Below are positions 4,808-12,850 of a stretch of DNA of 64,000 nucleotides, piece after piece. The notes under the pieces are model-generated. The model did not search any database and was not told where the DNA came from. It saw nothing but the letters and a program-made list of their open reading frames with translations. Position 1 is the first letter of the stretch, and each line of letters opens with the position of its first letter. The stretch is from NCBI GenBank assembly GCA_021789895.1, contig JAJYIU010000015.1, forward strand, positions 1 to 64,000, written 5' to 3'. The stretch is from Acidobacteriota bacterium (GTDB lineage: Bacteria > Acidobacteriota > Terriglobia > Terriglobales > SCQP01). The position numbers were made by a program, and so were the translations under genes.

Positions 4808-5713
4808 TTAATGATGATCCCCCCTTGCGGATTTGAAGAGATGCATACCGTAGGTAGCCAGGTGCCGACCGCCAAGATAAGCTTCGGTGCGCTGCCAGGC
4901 TCCATTCGACAGCTCGGAGACAATATGGCCACTCAGATCGTAAAGAAATGAAGTGAACGAGGCACATTGGCCGTTGTTGTCCATCGTACATTTGGCGGCG
5001 CGGTGGCCGGCGGCATCGTAAAAGTAATCCACTGCCCCAGGACTCGAACCGTTGCCGCCATTGCCATAAACACAAGCCAGCTGGCCTTCGGCGTCGTAAC
5101 TGAAATTATGTCCCAGGCCGTCATTGAGCAGATCGCCGGAGGCGTCGTAGCTATAATGGTCCATGCGATTGTTGCCGCCATTGAAAGTCAAGCCGGATAG
5201 AGTCAACCCGCTACCCGCGGTGACATTCTGGTCCCAACGGTTGCCGAAACGATCATAATCCCAGCTCAGACCGAAATGGCTGCCGTTCCCATCCGGGCAA
5301 TTCGAAGAGCAATTGGCCGCCAGCAAGCGATTCATATCGTCATAAATATAAACCCACTTGCCATTGACGGCATCGTTAGCTTCGGCGATATCGCCATCGG
5401 GAGCATAGGAAATTTGCAGCCAGTAAATACCCGTAGGCGGAATGGGATCGGCGCCACCGGTTAAGGTTGCGCCGGAAAGCGTTTCGGTAAACGAAGGCGA
5501 GGAAAACCATTGCGTCTGCCAGCTTTCCATTGGCAATAAAAATGCATCCCAGATCTGCTGTCGGCACCGGTCAGAGGGATCGCAAACATGATACGAAATA
5601 CCTACTCCATCTGCACTTATCGACTCAGTGGGCGCATATCCGCGGACGTGAGAAGTCTGGACATTCGCAACAAAGAGGCGTAGACTGCGCGTTGGGACAT
5701 TTCGCCTTGGCAA
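4808..5713 (-). pseudogene. RHS/YD-repeat protein, fragment
   Basis: A 301-aa open frame with clear YD/RHS repeats: WVYIYDDMNRLL, WDYDRFGNRW, YSYDASGDLLNDGLGH, FSYDAEGQLACVY and VDYFYDAAGHR, ending YLGGRHLATYGM. Intact RHS proteins are usually well over 1000 aa, and after this last motif they normally continue into the conserved RHS core and a variable toxin tip. Here both ends are missing. The frame stops 11 codons after YLGG, and its 5' side runs into the start of the receiver-TIR gene on the other strand with only a TTG as possible start. I read it as the remnant of a larger RHS gene cut by rearrangement or by insertion of the neighbouring system. Confidence 0.7.
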
Positions 5714-6561
5714 ACATATTTTTCATTGATGATGATTGCGCTTCGCAACTCGTTGTTGACAATCTCACACAACGCGGTCACGAAGTACATCGAACGTCCT
5801 GTTTGGAGGACGCACTTCACGATATAGAATGTATTATCAATAGCGACCTTGTTGTTCTAGACTTAATTATGCCTCGATTAGGAAACATACCCACGGACAG
5901 CCCCGATGGCGAACGTTGTGCTGGTATGTTACTGTATCGCGAAATTAGGCGCAAACGGGCCAATCTGCCAATCTTGATATTCACAGCTAACCAGGACCCC
6001 GCTCCGCGGCAGATAATCGATGCTGATCGGCACGCCAGATACATCGGTCGTTGGTCATCTCCGAGCTTTTCAGAATTCATAAGCATAGTCCTCGAGATGG
6101 CTGGCGCCCAAGCATCAACAGGGCGGCTGCGTCCCTTCATTGTGCATGGTCAGGACGAAAAGACCAAGTTAGAACTGAAGAACCTACTTCAAAATACACT
6201 AGGGATGGATGAACCGATTATTTTACATGAGCAGCCAAATCTCGGCCGCACGCTGATCGAGAAGTTCGAAGACTTGGCTACCACTGCTGACCTTGCGTTT
6301 GTACTGCTCACGCCTGATGACAAGCTCGCGAGCCCAGGCGACTTAGAAGCGGACAAACGGCGGGCCCGGCAGAACGTAATCCTTGAGCTCGGATTCTTCC
6401 TGAGTATGATGGGCAGGCATTCAGGTCGCGTATTTCTTCTTTACAAGGGAGCGCTAGATGTTCCGAGCGATCTCAGCGGGATTGTCTATATTGACATTTC
6501 CGCTGGCTTAGCTGCGGCCACCGAAGAGATCCGTCGCGAACTTGCGGCGATTGACCACTGA
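5707..6561 (+). CDS. Receiver domain-TIR (CAP12/PycTIR-type) fusion protein
   Basis: A predicted 284-aa two-domain protein. Residues 2-135 form a CheY-like receiver: FFIDDD acidic pocket, LVVLDLIMP with phosphoacceptor Asp (D52 from this start) and LIFTAN. The conserved lysine is missing (ARYIGRWSSP where a K-P is expected). Residues 142-281 match the TIR-like domain of CAP12/PycTIR effectors: PFIVHGQDE, ILHEQPNLGRTLIEKFEDLA, FVLLTPDD, QNVILELGFFLSMMGR and SGIVYIDI. The Glu in NVILELGFF lies where TIR NADases carry their catalytic Glu. The track start (5530) lies in RHS-derived DNA. The receiver fold begins at a TTG at 5707 (TTG 5692 is an alternative); no in-frame ATG fits. It heads an operon with a histidine kinase and a second receiver. 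I infer a phosphorylation-controlled NAD-depleting or nucleotide-binding effector; no such activity has been shown here. Confidence 0.82.
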   Translation: MANIFFIDDDCASQLVVDNLTQRGHEVHRTSCLEDALHDIECIINSDLVVLDLIMPRLGNIPTDSPDGERCAGMLLYREIRRKRANLPILIFTANQDPAPRQIIDADRHARYIGRWSSPSFSEFISIVLEMAGAQASTGRLRPFIVHGQDEKTKLELKNLLQNTLGMDEPIILHEQPNLGRTLIEKFEDLATTADLAFVLLTPDDKLASPGDLEADKRRARQNVILELGFFLSMMGRHSGRVFLLYKGALDVPSDLSGIVYIDISAGLAAATEEIRRELAAIDH

Positions 6562-6579: not shown

Positions 6580-7422
6580 ATGAACGTCCAGAGTTCCGAG
6601 GAGCAAATGGCCGCGTTAAAGGAGGAGAATCGTAAGCTAAGAGAGGAACTTGACCGCAGGAATAGAGAACGGATTGAGTACCTTCAGAATGTTTCCCATC
6701 AACTTGTTGCGCCATTGAATGCGATTAAATGGCACATTGAGAACATCACCTCGGCCCGAGTGGGTGTCGAGCGAGCGCAGAAGGTGCTACGTTCTGTGTA
6801 TTCCCAAGCTACGATTGCTGTGCACCTTGCCAAGAACTTTGCGTTGATGTCCAATCTCGAAGCGGATCATGCTTTGAACGCACTCCTCGAACCGCTCGAA
6901 CCTGTAAACCTGTGCCGACTACTGATTAACCTCTCCGACGACTTCCAGCCCCAGGGGTGGGACAGGGAGGTGCAGATTGGCGTTGAAGCAAGGCCGTTAG
7001 AAAGCGCGCCTGATGTTCTGGTTATAAAATCTCTCGTGAGCCAAGTGTTCAGCAATTTAATTGAAAATGCAGTGAAATATGCAAGCAAGGCTTCCGCGAT
7101 TGTCATTGACGGCTCCCATATGCCCACACGCGAAGCCGTTAGCGTAAACGTGCGTAATTATGGCATACCACTCAAGCCGCAAGATATGGAACGCATCTTC
7201 GAGCGCGGGTACCGGACGCAAGAGGCAAAGAACATGTATCCGGCAGGAACGGGCTTTGGGTTGTACATTGCTAAGAAGATTGTTCAGCTCCACGAAGGTA
7301 CGATAACTGTATCCTTCGATGATCGCCGCCGCATCGTGTTTACAGTAACATTACCCATCCGGGCTCTCGAAGGGAAGACCAAAGAACGTGGCCCGAAAGA
7401 CGATTCTCCTCATCGACGATGA
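6580..7422 (+). CDS. Soluble histidine kinase
   Basis: A 280-aa histidine kinase with no transmembrane segment and no sensor domain. Residues 5-35 form a charged coiled coil (EEQMAALKEENRKLREEL). The H-box is NVSHQLVAPLNAIK with the phosphoacceptor His40; the usual following Glu is Gln and the Thr position is Ala, which may alter phosphatase behaviour. The ATPase domain has an N-box (SNLIENAVKYA, N163) and a G2 box (GTGFGLYIAKKIV, residues 223-233). The G1 box is degenerate (NYGIPL). A good ribosome site, GGAGG with 4-nt spacing, precedes the ATG, 18 bp after the receiver-TIR gene. Its 3' end overlaps the next gene by 35 bp. It is probably the phosphodonor for one or both receivers; what activates it is unknown. 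Confidence 0.88.
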   Translation: MNVQSSEEQMAALKEENRKLREELDRRNRERIEYLQNVSHQLVAPLNAIKWHIENITSARVGVERAQKVLRSVYSQATIAVHLAKNFALMSNLEADHALNALLEPLEPVNLCRLLINLSDDFQPQGWDREVQIGVEARPLESAPDVLVIKSLVSQVFSNLIENAVKYASKASAIVIDGSHMPTREAVSVNVRNYGIPLKPQDMERIFERGYRTQEAKNMYPAGTGFGLYIAKKIVQLHEGTITVSFDDRRRIVFTVTLPIRALEGKTKERGPKDDSPHRR

Positions 7423-7819
7423 GCAAGGATTCCTGGAACCCTTGGAAGATGCTCTGACCTACGAAGGGTATCGTGTCCTCAAGGCCCGCGATGCCAGTAC
7501 CGCAGTCAGAATATTGAGGGAAGAGCAGATTGACCTTGTGTCGGTTGACATAATGTTATCGCCTGGCCCCGACTTTGAAGGCAGCGTCGACGCACAACGA
7601 GCAGGGGTTTACCTATGCGATCTAATTGCGAGACATTACCCGAACCTCGACGCTTTTTGCCTTAGCGTAATAACTGATAAGGAGACCATTCAGCACATAA
7701 AGCAACTCGGAATTAGGTTCCTTCGAAAAGGAGAAACGCCCCTTCGAACGGTGTTGGACCTAATGCGGTCACGGCTTCTTGGCACAGTTTCCTATCGCTC
7801 CCGCCAAAATCCCGGATAA
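7388..7819 (+). CDS. Stand-alone response-regulator receiver protein
   Basis: A 143-aa single-domain CheY-like receiver with no output domain. The acidic pair (LLIDDE, D10/D11), phosphoacceptor Asp (LVSVDIML, D54), Ser/Thr switch position (CLSVITD, S93) and Lys (FLRKGE, K114) are all present, unlike in the receiver-TIR protein. There is an extended segment of about 20 residues after the phosphoacceptor (SPGPDFEGSVDAQRAG), placed as in the receiver of the TIR fusion. The start is a GTG at 7388, inside the 3' end of the kinase gene, so the two are translationally coupled. It could be a phosphate shuttle or sink that sets how much phosphate reaches the TIR protein. That role is inferred from domain content and order. 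Confidence 0.87.
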   Translation: MARKTILLIDDEQGFLEPLEDALTYEGYRVLKARDASTAVRILREEQIDLVSVDIMLSPGPDFEGSVDAQRAGVYLCDLIARHYPNLDAFCLSVITDKETIQHIKQLGIRFLRKGETPLRTVLDLMRSRLLGTVSYRSRQNPG

Positions 7820-8149: not shown

Positions 8150-9526
8150 ATGGACGTCAACGAGCAACTCGGGCTGGAGTTTCAAGCGGAGCGGCGGGTG
8201 TGGACGATCTCGGCGCTGGTGGCGCGGCTGCGGCAGCAGCTCGAACACGATTTTTTCGATTGCTGGCTGGAAGGCGAGATTTCCAATCTCAAGCAGTCGG
8301 CGGCGCGGCACTACTACTTCGTGCTGAAAGACGGGCGCGCGCAGTTGCGCGCGGTGATGTTTGCCTCGGCGGCGCGGGGGCTGAAGACGCCGCCGCGCGA
8401 CGGTTTGCTGGCGCGGGTGCGCGGCCGGATCAGCGTGTATGAAGAGCGCGGCGAGCTGCAATGCCTGGTGGAATGGCTGGAGCCGGTGGGCGCCGGGGCC
8501 CTGCAGGCGGCCTTCGAGCAGCTCAAGCAGAAGCTGGAAGCCGAAGGGCTGTTCGCGCGCGAACGCAAGCGGCGGCTGCCGCTGCTGCCGCGGCGGGTGG
8601 GCCTGATTACTTCTCCCCGCGGGGCGGCGCTGCACGACCTGCTGCGGGTGATGCGGCGGCGTTACCCCAATCTCGACCTGCTGCTCTATCCGGTGCAGGT
8701 GCAAGGCGCCTCGGCGGCGGCGGAAATCTGCGCCGCGCTGGACTGGTTTGGCCGGCGGCGGGCGGCCGACGTGCTGATCGTCGCGCGCGGCGGGGGCTCG
8801 CTGGAAGACCTGCAGGCCTTCAACCAGGAAAGCGTCGCCCGGGCCATCGCCCGCTCGCCGCTGCCGGTGATTTCGGCGGTGGGGCACGAGACCGATTTCA
8901 CCATCGCCGATTTCGCCGCCGACCTGCGCGCGCCCACGCCCAGCGCGGCCGCCGAGCTGGTGGTGCGTCCCAAGCAGGACTGGGCGGCCGAGTGCGAAAA
9001 TTTGCGCCGGCGGCTGACGCAGCAGTTGCGCTATCGCCTGGTCGGGCTGCGGCGGCGGCTGGACCTGCTCACCCGTTTCGAGCCCTGGCGGGCGCGGCTG
9101 CGGCAGCAGGCGCAGAGACTGGACGAGCTGAGCTTCCGGATGCAGCGCGGGCTGAGGCGCGGGCTGCAGGCGCGCCGCCGCAGCCTGGAGCGCGCCGCCG
9201 CCGCGGTGCGCGAGCACAGCCCGCGCCGCCGGCTGGAGCGGCTGGAGCAGGCGCTGGAAGCGCGCCAGCAGGCCTGCCGCAGCGCCTACCGCCTGTACCT
9301 GAACGCGGCCCGCCGCCGGCTGGAGCAGGCCGCCGGGCGGCTGGAGGAGCGCAATCCGATCGCCATACTCAACCGCGGCTATGCCCTGGTCTACGACCTG
9401 GAGGGCCGGCTGGTGGCGACTCCGAGCGCGGTCAACCCCGGCGACGGCGTGCATGTGCAGTTCGCCACCGGCTGGCTGGAGGCGGAAGTGAAGCGGCGAC
9501 GGATGGAGCCGCCGCAGACCCGATAG
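8150..9526 (+). CDS. xseA: Exodeoxyribonuclease VII large subunit
   Basis: A 458-aa XseA, the catalytic subunit of exonuclease VII, which degrades single-stranded DNA from either end to short oligonucleotides. The N-terminal OB-fold is recognisable (WTISALVARLRQQLEHDF, WLEGEISNLKQSAARHYYF). The catalytic domain carries GLITSPRGAALHDLLRV, VARGGGSLEDLQAFN and ISAVGHETDFTIADFAADLR followed by APTPSAAAE. A long Arg-rich coiled coil (residues 280-400) and the ERNPIAILNRGYALV end follow. The length is normal. No ribosome site is evident at the chosen ATG. The small subunit xseB is not adjacent. It marks the return to high G+C after the island. Confidence 0.95.
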   Translation: MDVNEQLGLEFQAERRVWTISALVARLRQQLEHDFFDCWLEGEISNLKQSAARHYYFVLKDGRAQLRAVMFASAARGLKTPPRDGLLARVRGRISVYEERGELQCLVEWLEPVGAGALQAAFEQLKQKLEAEGLFARERKRRLPLLPRRVGLITSPRGAALHDLLRVMRRRYPNLDLLLYPVQVQGASAAAEICAALDWFGRRRAADVLIVARGGGSLEDLQAFNQESVARAIARSPLPVISAVGHETDFTIADFAADLRAPTPSAAAELVVRPKQDWAAECENLRRRLTQQLRYRLVGLRRRLDLLTRFEPWRARLRQQAQRLDELSFRMQRGLRRGLQARRRSLERAAAAVREHSPRRRLERLEQALEARQQACRSAYRLYLNAARRRLEQAAGRLEERNPIAILNRGYALVYDLEGRLVATPSAVNPGDGVHVQFATGWLEAEVKRRRMEPPQTR

Positions 9527-9548: not shown

Positions 9549-9581
9549 TGCAAAATATTCGATGGCATCGTATATTTTGCA
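9549..9581 (+). promoter_or_regulatory. 33-bp palindrome with TATATT box over the ATPase start
   Basis: Outer arms TGCAAAATAT (9549-9558) and ATATTTTGCA (9572-9581) are exact reverse complements. Inside them CGAT (9560-9563) and ATCG (9567-9570) also pair around GGC, with one mismatch. The A+T-rich element ends 2 bp before the ATG at 9583. It contains TATATT (9571-9576) six bases before that ATG, the spacing of a -10 box for a leaderless mRNA. It may be promoter and repressor site in one. Confidence 0.6.
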
Positions 9582-9582
9582 T

Positions 9583-10743
9583 ATGTGGATACCGCGTACG
9601 ATTGAGCCCCGATTGCTGCGTTCGGTGAAGACGCGGCCGGTGGTGGTTTTAACCGGAGCGAGGCAAGCCGGCAAAACGTCCACCTATTTACATTTATTTC
9701 CACAATATGCGTTTGTTTCGCTCGATTTGCCGGCCGAAGCGGAGCAGGCGGAAAAAGAACCCGGACACTTTCTGCAGCGCCATCCGCCGCCCGTCATCCT
9801 GGATGGGGTTCAATATGCGCCGGGGTTATTCCGGCACTTGAAGATTGCGGTGGATGCCGACCGAAGCCGTCCGGGACAATTTCTACTCACGGGTTCCCAG
9901 AAATTCACATTGATGAAGAACATTTCGGAATCGCTGGCGGGGCGCGCCGATATCATCGAATTGGAAACGCTATCGCTGAAGGAAATTCGGGCGGCCAGGC
10001 CGGAGATCGGGACCGAGACCGCCATGATCCGCGGCGGTTTTCCGGAGCTGTATGCGAACCCGGAGATCGATGCGATCGCTTTTTACAATTCCTATCTCGC
10101 CACCTATCTCGAACGCGACGTGCGTTCGCTGGCGAATGTGGGCAGCTTGCGGGATTTCGAGCGTTTTTTACGGGCCTGCGCGCTGCGCTCGGCGAATTTG
10201 CTGAACAAGGCGGACCTGGCGCGCGACGTCGGCATATCTCCCTCGACGGCGAATCATTGGCTCTCGACGCTGGAAGCGTCCGGCCAGATCGTTTTTCTCG
10301 AGCCCTGGTTTTCGAATCGCACCAAGACGATCGTGAAAAGCCCAAAGCTCTATCTGGCCGACAGCGGCCTGCTTTGCGCATTGTTGAACATACGGTCGGA
10401 GGAGGCGCTGCGGGCATCGCCGGCGGCGGGCGCGGTTTGGGAAACCTTCGTCTTCGCGCAACTGCGCGAACGCGAGCGGCGCGCGGGGCGCGCCGGCAAC
10501 CTGTTCTATTGGCGCGATCGCTCGCGCGAAGTGGATTTTGTAAGCGATGCCGGCGGCCGGCTGGAATTATACGAGGCGAAATGGACCGAATTACCGACGG
10601 CGGGGGACACGGTCAATCTCGACTATGTTCGCCGGGTGGCGGGGGAATCGGGCATTACCGAAGGGGCGATCGTGGCGCGCGCGGCGAACAGCTACCCGCT
10701 GCCGAACGGATTTCGGGTGCTGCCGGTGACGGAACTGGAATGA
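9583..10743 (+). CDS. AAA ATPase with DUF4143 (COG1373 type)
   Basis: A 386-aa member of the COG1373 ATPase family. Residues 25-33 form the P-loop (GARQAGKTS). The Walker B position reads VILDGVQYAP where family members usually have D-E, so the catalytic Glu is Gly75 here. FLLTGSQKFTLM is the sensor-1 region. A winged-helix segment (KADLARDVGISPSTANHWLSTLE) follows, then a DUF4143 end resembling a PD-(D/E)xK fold (REVDFV, then LELYEAKWT). The track frame starts at 8461 inside xseA, but homology begins at MWIPRTIEP. An ATG at 9562 lies inside the palindrome, so I use the ATG at 9583. The biological role of this family is poorly known. Its lower G+C start region and its repeat-bearing downstream flank suggest it was acquired. 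Confidence 0.85.
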   Translation: MWIPRTIEPRLLRSVKTRPVVVLTGARQAGKTSTYLHLFPQYAFVSLDLPAEAEQAEKEPGHFLQRHPPPVILDGVQYAPGLFRHLKIAVDADRSRPGQFLLTGSQKFTLMKNISESLAGRADIIELETLSLKEIRAARPEIGTETAMIRGGFPELYANPEIDAIAFYNSYLATYLERDVRSLANVGSLRDFERFLRACALRSANLLNKADLARDVGISPSTANHWLSTLEASGQIVFLEPWFSNRTKTIVKSPKLYLADSGLLCALLNIRSEEALRASPAAGAVWETFVFAQLRERERRAGRAGNLFYWRDRSREVDFVSDAGGRLELYEAKWTELPTAGDTVNLDYVRRVAGESGITEGAIVARAANSYPLPNGFRVLPVTELE

Positions 10744-10879: not shown

Positions 10880-12850
10880 ATGCCAGGTTTTCGCGAACAT
10901 TACGATCTGGTCATCGTCGGCGCCGGCCACGCCGGCTGCGAAGCCGCGCTGGCCGGGGCGCGGCTGGGGCTGAAGACGGCGCTATTCACGCTCAATCTCG
11001 ACCTGATCGCGCAGATGTCGTGCAACCCCGCCATCGGGGGCATCGGCAAGGGCCATCTGGTGCGGGAAATTGACGCCCTCGGCGGGGCGATGGGGCGGGT
11101 GATTGACGAGGTCGGGATCCAATTCCGGCTGTTGAACACCAGCCGCGGTCCGGCGGTCTGGTCGCCGCGGGCGCAGGCGGACAAGAAGCAGTACCGCAAC
11201 CGCATGCGGCAGGCGCTGGAAAGCGAGCCGCATCTGCGGATTCGCCAGGCGGAGGTTTGCGATCTGCTGCTCGAGCCCGAAGCCGCGCCGGCGGCCGGAG
11301 AGGGGGCGGGGAACGGGAATCACGGCCGCCCGCGGCGGCGCTGCGCCGGGGTCAAGCTGCGCGATGGGCGCGAGATTTCCGCCGGCGCGGTGGTGATCAC
11401 CACCGGCACGTTCCTGAACGGGCTCATACACATCGGCGAAAACACCTACCCGGCGGGGCGCAGCGGCGAGCCGGCGGCGCATCTGCTGGGGGAAGCGCTG
11501 AAGCGCCTGGGCTTTGCCTGCGGGCGGCTGAAGACCGGCACGCCGCCCCGGCTCGACGCCCGCTCGATCGAGTGGAGCGCGTTCCAGCCGCAGCCCGGCG
11601 ACGCCGAGCCGACGCCGTTTTCTTTTCAGACGGCGTGCATCGAGCGGGAGCAGATCGTCTGCCACCTTGCCTTCAGCAATGCCGCCACCCACGCCGTCAT
11701 CCGCGAAAACCTGGGCCGCAGCCCGCTCTATTCGGGCCGCATACAGGGTTTGGGCCCGCGCTATTGCCCCAGTTTCGAAGACAAGGTGGTGAAGTTTCCG
11801 GAAAAGGAGCGGCATCAGCTTTTTCTCGAGCCCGAGGGGCTGGACACGAACGAGATCTACGTCAACGGGCTTTCGACCTCGATGCCGGCGGAGGTGCAGG
11901 CGCGGCTGCTGGCGACCATACCCGGCCTGGAGCAGGCCGAGATGCTGCGCCCCGGCTATGCCATCGAGTACGATTTCGTGCAGCCCACGGAGCTGACGCC
12001 GGCGCTCGAAACCAAGGCCATCGCGGGGCTGTTTCTGGCGGGACAGATCAACGGCACCACCGGCTACGAGGAAGCCGCCTGCCAGGGGCTGATGGCGGGC
12101 ATCAACGCCGCGCTGCAGGTCGCGGGGCGCCCGCCGCTGGTGCTGAGCCGCACCGAAGCCTATACCGGCATCCTGATTGACGATCTGACCTCGCGCGGCG
12201 CCGACGAGCCTTACCGCATGTTCACCTCGCGCGCCGAATTCCGCCTGCATTTGCGGATTGACAACGCCGACGCGCGGCTGATGCCGCACGCGCACCGGCT
12301 GGGGCTGCTACCCGAGCCGGCCTGGCAGGCTTTCCGGGGGCGGCAGGAGCGGCAGCGCCGGCTGCAAAGCTGGTTTGCGGGCACGCGGCCCGACCTGGGA
12401 GAGCCGGCGGCGGCGGCGATAGCCGCCAAGCTGAACGGGCCCTTGCCCGACCGTCCCAGCGCCGCCCAACTGCTCAAGCGCCCCGAACTGGCTTTTGCCG
12501 ATTTCCTGCCCTTGCTGGCAGCCCAGGAGCCGGAGCTGGCGGCGCGCCTGCGCGAGCTCGATCCCGCCGGCTGGGAAGGCAAGACGGTCGAAACCCAGAT
12601 CAAGTACGAGGGCTACCTGGATCAGCAGCAGCGGCAGATCGAGCAGTTGCGCTCCGCCGAGCGGCATGCCATTCCGCCGGGCTTCGATTATTCCGCCCTG
12701 CCCGGGCTATCGCGGGAAATGCGGGAAAAGCTCAGCCGCGTGCAGCCGCTGACCCTGGGGCAGGCCTCGCGCATCCCCGGCGTCACCCCGGCGGCAATCT
12801 CGCTGCTGCACGTGCAATTGGAACTGGCGCGCCGGGCGGCTCGCGGCTGA
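10880..12850 (+). CDS. mnmG: tRNA uridine-5-carboxymethylaminomethyl(34) synthesis enzyme MnmG
   Basis: A 656-aa FAD protein that, with the GTPase MnmE, installs carboxymethylaminomethyl on the wobble uridine of certain tRNAs. Seen in order: FAD-binding [13 protein letters not shown] (residues 13-25), [92 protein letters not shown] and a C-terminal helical domain for MnmE/tRNA binding ([22 protein letters not shown]). An Arg-rich insert of about 20 residues near 145 ([14 protein letters not shown]) is unusual. No strong ribosome site precedes the ATG. mnmE is not in the window. Confidence 0.96.

Follow-up and report, generated by a model that had tools for sequence, protein, structure and literature searches.

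The ATPase–nuclease gene and the palindrome at its start

The window (the whole 64,000-nt stretch analyzed here) contains an intact reading frame for an AAA_14–DUF4143 protein between xseA, which ends at 9526 on the same strand, 56 nt upstream, and mnmG, which starts at 10880 (Table 1). Both neighbors were named from their translations. The protein scored above the Pfam cut-offs for AAA_14 (residues 18–135, 81.5 bits against a cut-off of 27) and DUF4143 (residues 177–334, 151.3 bits against 28.1), bearing out an earlier note that had identified it as a COG1373 ATPase. In PADLOC, it matched seven PDC-S01 models (PDLC04786–04792, best E 4.4e-96), and we regard the gene as a PDC-S01 defense candidate with a predicted anti-phage role. 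It is the single DUF4143 gene in the window's 3.75-Mb genome. Across the Acidobacteriota, DUF4143 genes were found in 219 of the 396 genomes searched (e.g., G206, G252, and G499), and a single genome had as many as ~30 candidate matches.

The AlphaFold2 model of the protein (mean pLDDT 93.9) contains a helix-helix-helix-strand-strand segment at residues ~189–258, so the winged helix that the earlier note had claimed is present in the model; a weak Pfam match to a winged-helix domain (HTH_24) covers residues 207–236. The nearest solved folds were those of the STAND ATPase PABY2304 (2qen), Apaf-1, RuvB, and Orc1/Cdc6 (2qby), and structures of the CRISPR ancillary nuclease Can2 were also among the fold matches. 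A sequence search of the PDB with the protein gave no meaningful match. Five residues, E287, E316, D318, E331, and K333, form the pattern of a PD-(D/E)XK nuclease, and DNA cleavage is accordingly a prediction from their invariance in the aligned proteins. The Walker B motif of the window copy reads DGVQ (Asp-Gly), whereas every relative in which the motif could be read has Asp-Glu. Because this glutamate is lost, the window copy may be ATPase-impaired and not fully active, or the Walker B base may be an assembly error. The change may matter for how active this copy is; its membership in the family is unaffected.

A different gene in the window, at 5530–6561, encodes a protein in which a CAP12/Pycsar-type TIR domain (PF10137, E 2e-30) follows a weak receiver domain; the gene adjoins a histidine kinase (6580–7422) and a response regulator (7388–7819). 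This is an unusual joining of a defense-type TIR effector domain with two-component parts.

Table 1. Features of the ATPase–nuclease locus, by position in the window
Feature	Position	Strand	Basis or remark
-35-like hexamer GTGCAA	9548..9553	+	Sequence; 17 nt from the -10-like hexamer; weak in the window copy
Palindromic putative operator, TGCAAAATATTCGATG-G-CATCGTATATTTTGCA	9549..9581	.	Sequence and conservation at 46 homologous starts
-10-like hexamer TATATT, inside the right arm	9571..9576	+	Sequence; 6 nt before the ATG
Single base before the start codon	9582..9582	+	1-nt gap kept in 42 of 46 relatives
AAA_14–DUF4143 ATPase/nuclease gene, 386 aa, PDC-S01 type	9583..10743	+	Intact ORF
Walker A codons, GARQAGKT	9655..9678	+	
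Walker B, D74-G75 (usual glutamate is glycine)	9802..9807	+	Aligned proteins
Winged-helix segment, residues ~189–258, proposed reader of the palindrome	10147..10356	+	AlphaFold2 model and weak HTH_24 match
PD-(D/E)XK-type motif, E287, E316/D318, E331-x-K333	10441..10581	+	Invariant in 57 aligned proteins

The 33-base palindrome before this gene, which the earlier note had reported with a single mismatch, has 16-nt arms (9549–9564 and 9566–9581) around a central base, G9565, and 15 of its 16 pairs match (94% complementary). T9582 alone separates it from the ATG (9583–9585). Within the window, the exact 10-base arm sequence occurs only at these two places, and a search with the 33-mer allowing up to 3 mismatches found one site in the 3.75-Mb genome. 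This single site rules out a genome-wide regulon.

The palindrome also coincides with a putative promoter. The -35-like hexamer, often TTGCAA in relatives, is poor in the window copy, and only the -10 is good, which is why a consensus scan requiring 9 of 12 sigma-70 matches accepted no promoter at the window palindrome. Among the relatives described below, the asymmetry between the two arms is clearest at position 11, where the left arm usually has G and the right arm mostly T, the first base of the -10 hexamer. Such an asymmetry is expected if one arm must double as a promoter. A conserved site with two-fold symmetry, then, overlaps what appears to be the gene's own promoter, as predicted from the sequence.

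Conservation of the palindrome and movement with the gene

Scanning one genome per species, we recovered 66 relatives of the gene, 48–85% identical in their best segment. Their labels are mostly acidobacterial and also include Beta- and Gammaproteobacteria, Verrucomicrobia, Planctomycetota, Eisenbacteria, Lentisphaerae, and others. Since metagenome binning produced most of these records, any one label may be mistaken; the Acidobacteriaceae chromosome CP085323 (L050) is complete. The putative operator, TGCAAAATATgCGATtgtATCGtATATTTtGCA, stands directly before the start in almost all relatives with a readable start. A phage contig (L237) whose copy is 77% identical likewise carries both the gene and a recognizable operator.

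Among 46 distinct sites, agreement changed abruptly at the boundaries of this region: pairwise identity was 0.83 in the left arm, 0.76 in the right arm, and 0.35 at the center, and it was random (0.26) in the immediate 5' flank. At the other end of the gene, pairwise identity was 0.47 in the last 19 codons and then 0.28 and 0.26 past the stop codon. The gap between operator and start codon is nearly always exactly 1 nt (Table 1). A chance palindrome is ruled out, because these 46 distinct copies lie at the same place beside homologous genes, amid neighboring bases that are random. Given the sharp conservation edges at the palindrome and at the stop codon, the inherited, transferable unit is the putative operator plus the reading frame. 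The earlier note had said that its reading would fall if the arms were not conserved at other family members; they are conserved across the 46 sites, with the evidence drawn from genomes other than that of the window, which has its one DUF4143 gene.

The two arms also tended to change together. Arm-to-arm agreement amounted to 550 matching cells against 535 ± 5 for independent columns, and 21 non-consensus cells were shared by both arms against 12 ± 2.5, although relatedness can inflate these counts and shared ancestry explains much of the covariation. Examples are L007 (TGCTAAATAT/ATATTTAGCA) and L032 (TGCGGAATAT/ATATTCCGCA).

Two copies have host sequence repeated around them. In L006 (2500–4510), a truncated protein-kinase paralogue directly adjoins the ATPase stop codon, where the junction falls exactly, and it shares ~92% identity with the kinase gene that flanks the ATPase on its opposite side. 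In L037 (2400–4300), the copy lies between two directly repeated stretches from the end of a host gene, identical over 78 bp; it is next to a run of N, so the arrangement is possibly an assembly artifact. In the nearest relative genome (G001), xseA is present and the downstream genes differ, so this is not a clean empty site.

A gene that moves so readily could be a selfish single-gene mobile element, with the palindrome serving as a recombination or nuclease site on which its PD-(D/E)XK domain acts. Strong mobility across phyla, the sharp ends of the unit, the invariant nuclease motif, and the two copies adjoining near-duplicated host sequence all fit such an element. Still, we judge it improbable, because the palindrome has no 3' counterpart and a target-site duplication is missing in most copies. 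For the same reasons, together with the lack of anything conserved past the stop codon, we rejected the terminus of an insertion sequence; the paired terminal repeats and target-site duplication of a transposable unit were not found. Nor does the palindrome stand free of the gene in viral contigs or elsewhere in the window's genome: a search of 2.9 million viral contigs gave no match to its pattern, and plasmids yielded nothing beyond short matches of the kind expected by chance. Moreover, a promoter explanation would be needed for the palindrome's constant 1-nt spacing from the start codon and for its tie to the -10.

Repeats and promoter layout across the family

We also examined a diverse set of 109 distinct upstream regions (loci L069–L193), mostly from diverse DUF4143 genes and including a few close relatives of the query (e.g., L071 and L072), by scoring the strongest inverted repeat within 60 nt upstream of each start and counting scores of at least 8. 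Strong inverted repeats preceded 47% of the 109 starts, compared to 5.1% of 296 control regions upstream of neighboring genes at those loci and 1.4% of dinucleotide-shuffled sequences. The family's upstream regions are more A+T-rich than the controls, and A+T-rich controls alone gave 8.7% (69 sequences). The repeats end either 0–3 nt before the start or about 12–24 nt before it, over the -35 region. Some, in distant members, are perfect palindromes, such as GTTGACAAATCTAAGATT-G-AATCTTAGATTTGTCAAC-ATG in L082, whose 18-bp arms abut the start, and TGAGTATTTTAAAGT-TCC-ACTTTAAAATACTCA-T-GTG in L075, with 15-bp arms at the start; a further example is ACCTCGCATTTCTTCCAC-GCT-GTGGAATAATTGCGAGGT-ATG in L093. 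About 110–150 nt upstream of its start, L082 has a second, related palindrome (AATGACAAATCTAAAGT..ACTTTAGATTTGTCATT). An inverted repeat was also found in 62% of a further 37 upstream regions, which include Moraxella, Emticicia, Dinoroseobacter, and Thermus plasmids and repeat a few genes already counted (e.g., L215 is the same gene as L032). A family member of Thermus HB8 has an imperfect repeat only.

About ten members instead carry tandem repeats of 22–23 bp that reach the start or end near it, for example AATCCGGATTGGACG in L092 and TTGCAATCAGCCG in L147, L169, and L176. Tandem scores of at least 14 were reached by 12 of the 109 family regions and 3 of 281 controls. At these thresholds, 53% of the diverse members have a palindrome or tandem repeats, and about half show neither. 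Iteron-like tandem repeats with no palindrome were seen in L092, L083, L091, L173, L147, L169, L176, L143, and L192, and their period is close to the 23-bp spacing between half-site centers in the palindromes. Judged from these upstream regions, the palindrome is a family-wide trait whose sequence changes between subfamilies and which has a tandem-repeat variant, a pattern absent from the earlier note.

The promoter geometry extends across the family as well. The earlier note had placed TATATT at leaderless -10 spacing, and TANNNT precedes the start by 5–8 nt in over half of both the diverse and the close set (56% and 57%), compared to 5% of controls. Shine-Dalgarno cores, by contrast, precede 10% of the diverse set and 2% of the close set vs 22% of controls. 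A -10 placed directly before the start codon without a Shine-Dalgarno sequence is the layout of leaderless promoters. Given this enrichment and the scarcity of Shine-Dalgarno sites, leaderless transcription looks typical of the AAA_14–DUF4143 family, with the start position predicted from geometry. The pattern is not universal, because family members on viral contigs had a weaker signal (inverted repeat in 30%, TANNNT in 20%) and Shine-Dalgarno cores in 37%.

Because the palindrome folds well as RNA (-23.2 kcal/mol, z -2.7) and xseA ends so close upstream on the same strand, the palindrome might act as a hairpin that hides the start codon in xseA read-through transcripts, or as an attenuator. 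We give this little weight. With the -10 inside the right arm, the gene's own transcript would lack the hairpin, and the direct repeats of some subfamilies form none. In addition, G-U accounts for 28 of 110 mismatches between the arms, modestly above the 18 of A-C (with the promoter-constrained column excluded), which is unlike a maintained stem.

The likely reader of the putative operator and related systems

The similarity of these putative operators tracks the protein, not the host. Paralogues in the same genome had an operator similarity of 3.06 compared to a baseline of 2.55, and the operator of a betaproteobacterial copy (L215) scored 6.2 against acidobacterial operators and 2.0–5.0 against those of its own paralogues. 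When the ATPase domain was held constant, operator similarity correlated with similarity in the winged helix (partial r 0.24, higher than in any of 500 permutations), whereas the reverse control, operator against ATPase domain with the winged helix held constant, gave 0.02. Common descent accounts for a large part of the operator–protein correlation. The nuclease region correlated as well as the winged helix did (partial r 0.26), so either of them may be the reading domain.

Several defense loci are controlled by a separate regulator, namely BrxR, CapW, or RptR (PMC9122601, PMC9122588, PMC12255303), and a host regulator other than the ATPase might likewise read the palindrome. We consider this unlikely, if somewhat less so than a hairpin or a recombination site, given that the moving unit is the palindrome and reading frame only, with random flanks and no co-traveling regulator, that the site occurs once in the window's genome, and that paralogues in one genome have unrelated operators. 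Instead, the movement of the unit alone, the unlike operators of paralogues, and the winged-helix correlation lead us to favor the ATPase itself. That the operator moves with the gene alone also fits the earlier note's suggestion that a domain of the ATPase is the reader. The palindrome is therefore likely, in our estimation, to be the cognate operator of its own ATPase, within a self-repressed one-gene cassette. No rival explanation covers all three of unit transfer, promoter overlap, and the diversity of operators within one genome.

In such a self-repressed cassette, the operator would cover the promoter, extending from the -35 region as far as the start codon, and transcription from the -10 in the right arm would begin at the ATG or beside it. 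The ATPase could occupy both half-sites as a dimer, with the winged helix as the most likely contact, and block RNA polymerase, so that the gene would be kept low by its own product. Promoter, operator, and repressor would move together and could work at once in a new host. Subfamilies would keep this architecture with a changed recognition sequence or with 22–23-bp tandem repeats, a variation that is seen at the sequence level. More speculatively, expression might rise when the ATPase leaves the operator, either because it engages foreign DNA or because its nucleotide state changes. An extended version, in which the ATPase–nuclease is its own repressor, release both arms the nuclease and induces the gene, and repeated changes of operator specificity insulate the many paralogues of one genome from one another, is possible but rather doubtful.

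Candidate anti-phage genes of this type, then, probably bring their own on/off switch. Counting candidates, PDC-S01 is reported to be the fourth most common defense system in prokaryotes, and validation is reported as pending for most such candidates (PMC12988326). We found no description of a PDC-S01 operator or promoter in the published literature, and the titles and abstracts of COG1373 papers included none on promoters or operators; where DUF4143 was mentioned in a paper, it was in an expression table for Thermus. The conserved operator is a first concrete handle on which DNA PDC-S01 targets, how it is regulated, and what turns it on. It offers a defined DNA ligand for binding and structural work, an inducer reporter, and diverged protein–site pairs from which a recognition code could be derived. 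The carriage of its own control also suggests how the gene could work straight after transfer between phyla. If the extended version is true, one of the commonest candidate defense genes in prokaryotes is a single-gene, self-switching system with a private operator and a leaderless promoter.

The published PDC-S01 candidate has the same domain make-up as the window protein, an ATPase joined to a PD-(D/E)XK nuclease (PMC12988326). In Thermus thermophilus HB27, expression of the AAA_14–DUF4143 gene TT_P0211 rose 6.6-fold when the cells had a plasmid as well as Argonaute (PMC4406477). In structure, the closest folds to the window model are STAND/AAA+ initiator-like ATPases (2qen, 2qby, and RuvB), which share the winged helix, although they have no sequence relationship in the PDB search and the full-length fold match is partial (TM ~0.5 at best). 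Orc1/Cdc6 reads DNA sites with its winged helix. In regulation, type II toxin–antitoxin systems, as described in the RptR report (PMC12255303), place their own product on a palindrome over their own promoter, as we propose here; they are gene pairs, however, and the window locus is one gene with no conserved toxin partner. BrxR, CapW, and RptR are HTH-type repressors acting at repeats in defense promoters, like the window site, and RptR in addition acts on its own promoter, which it represses through repeats that cover the -10 (PMC12255303). These three are separate regulatory genes, whereas the sole candidate reader in the window system is the ATPase–nuclease itself.
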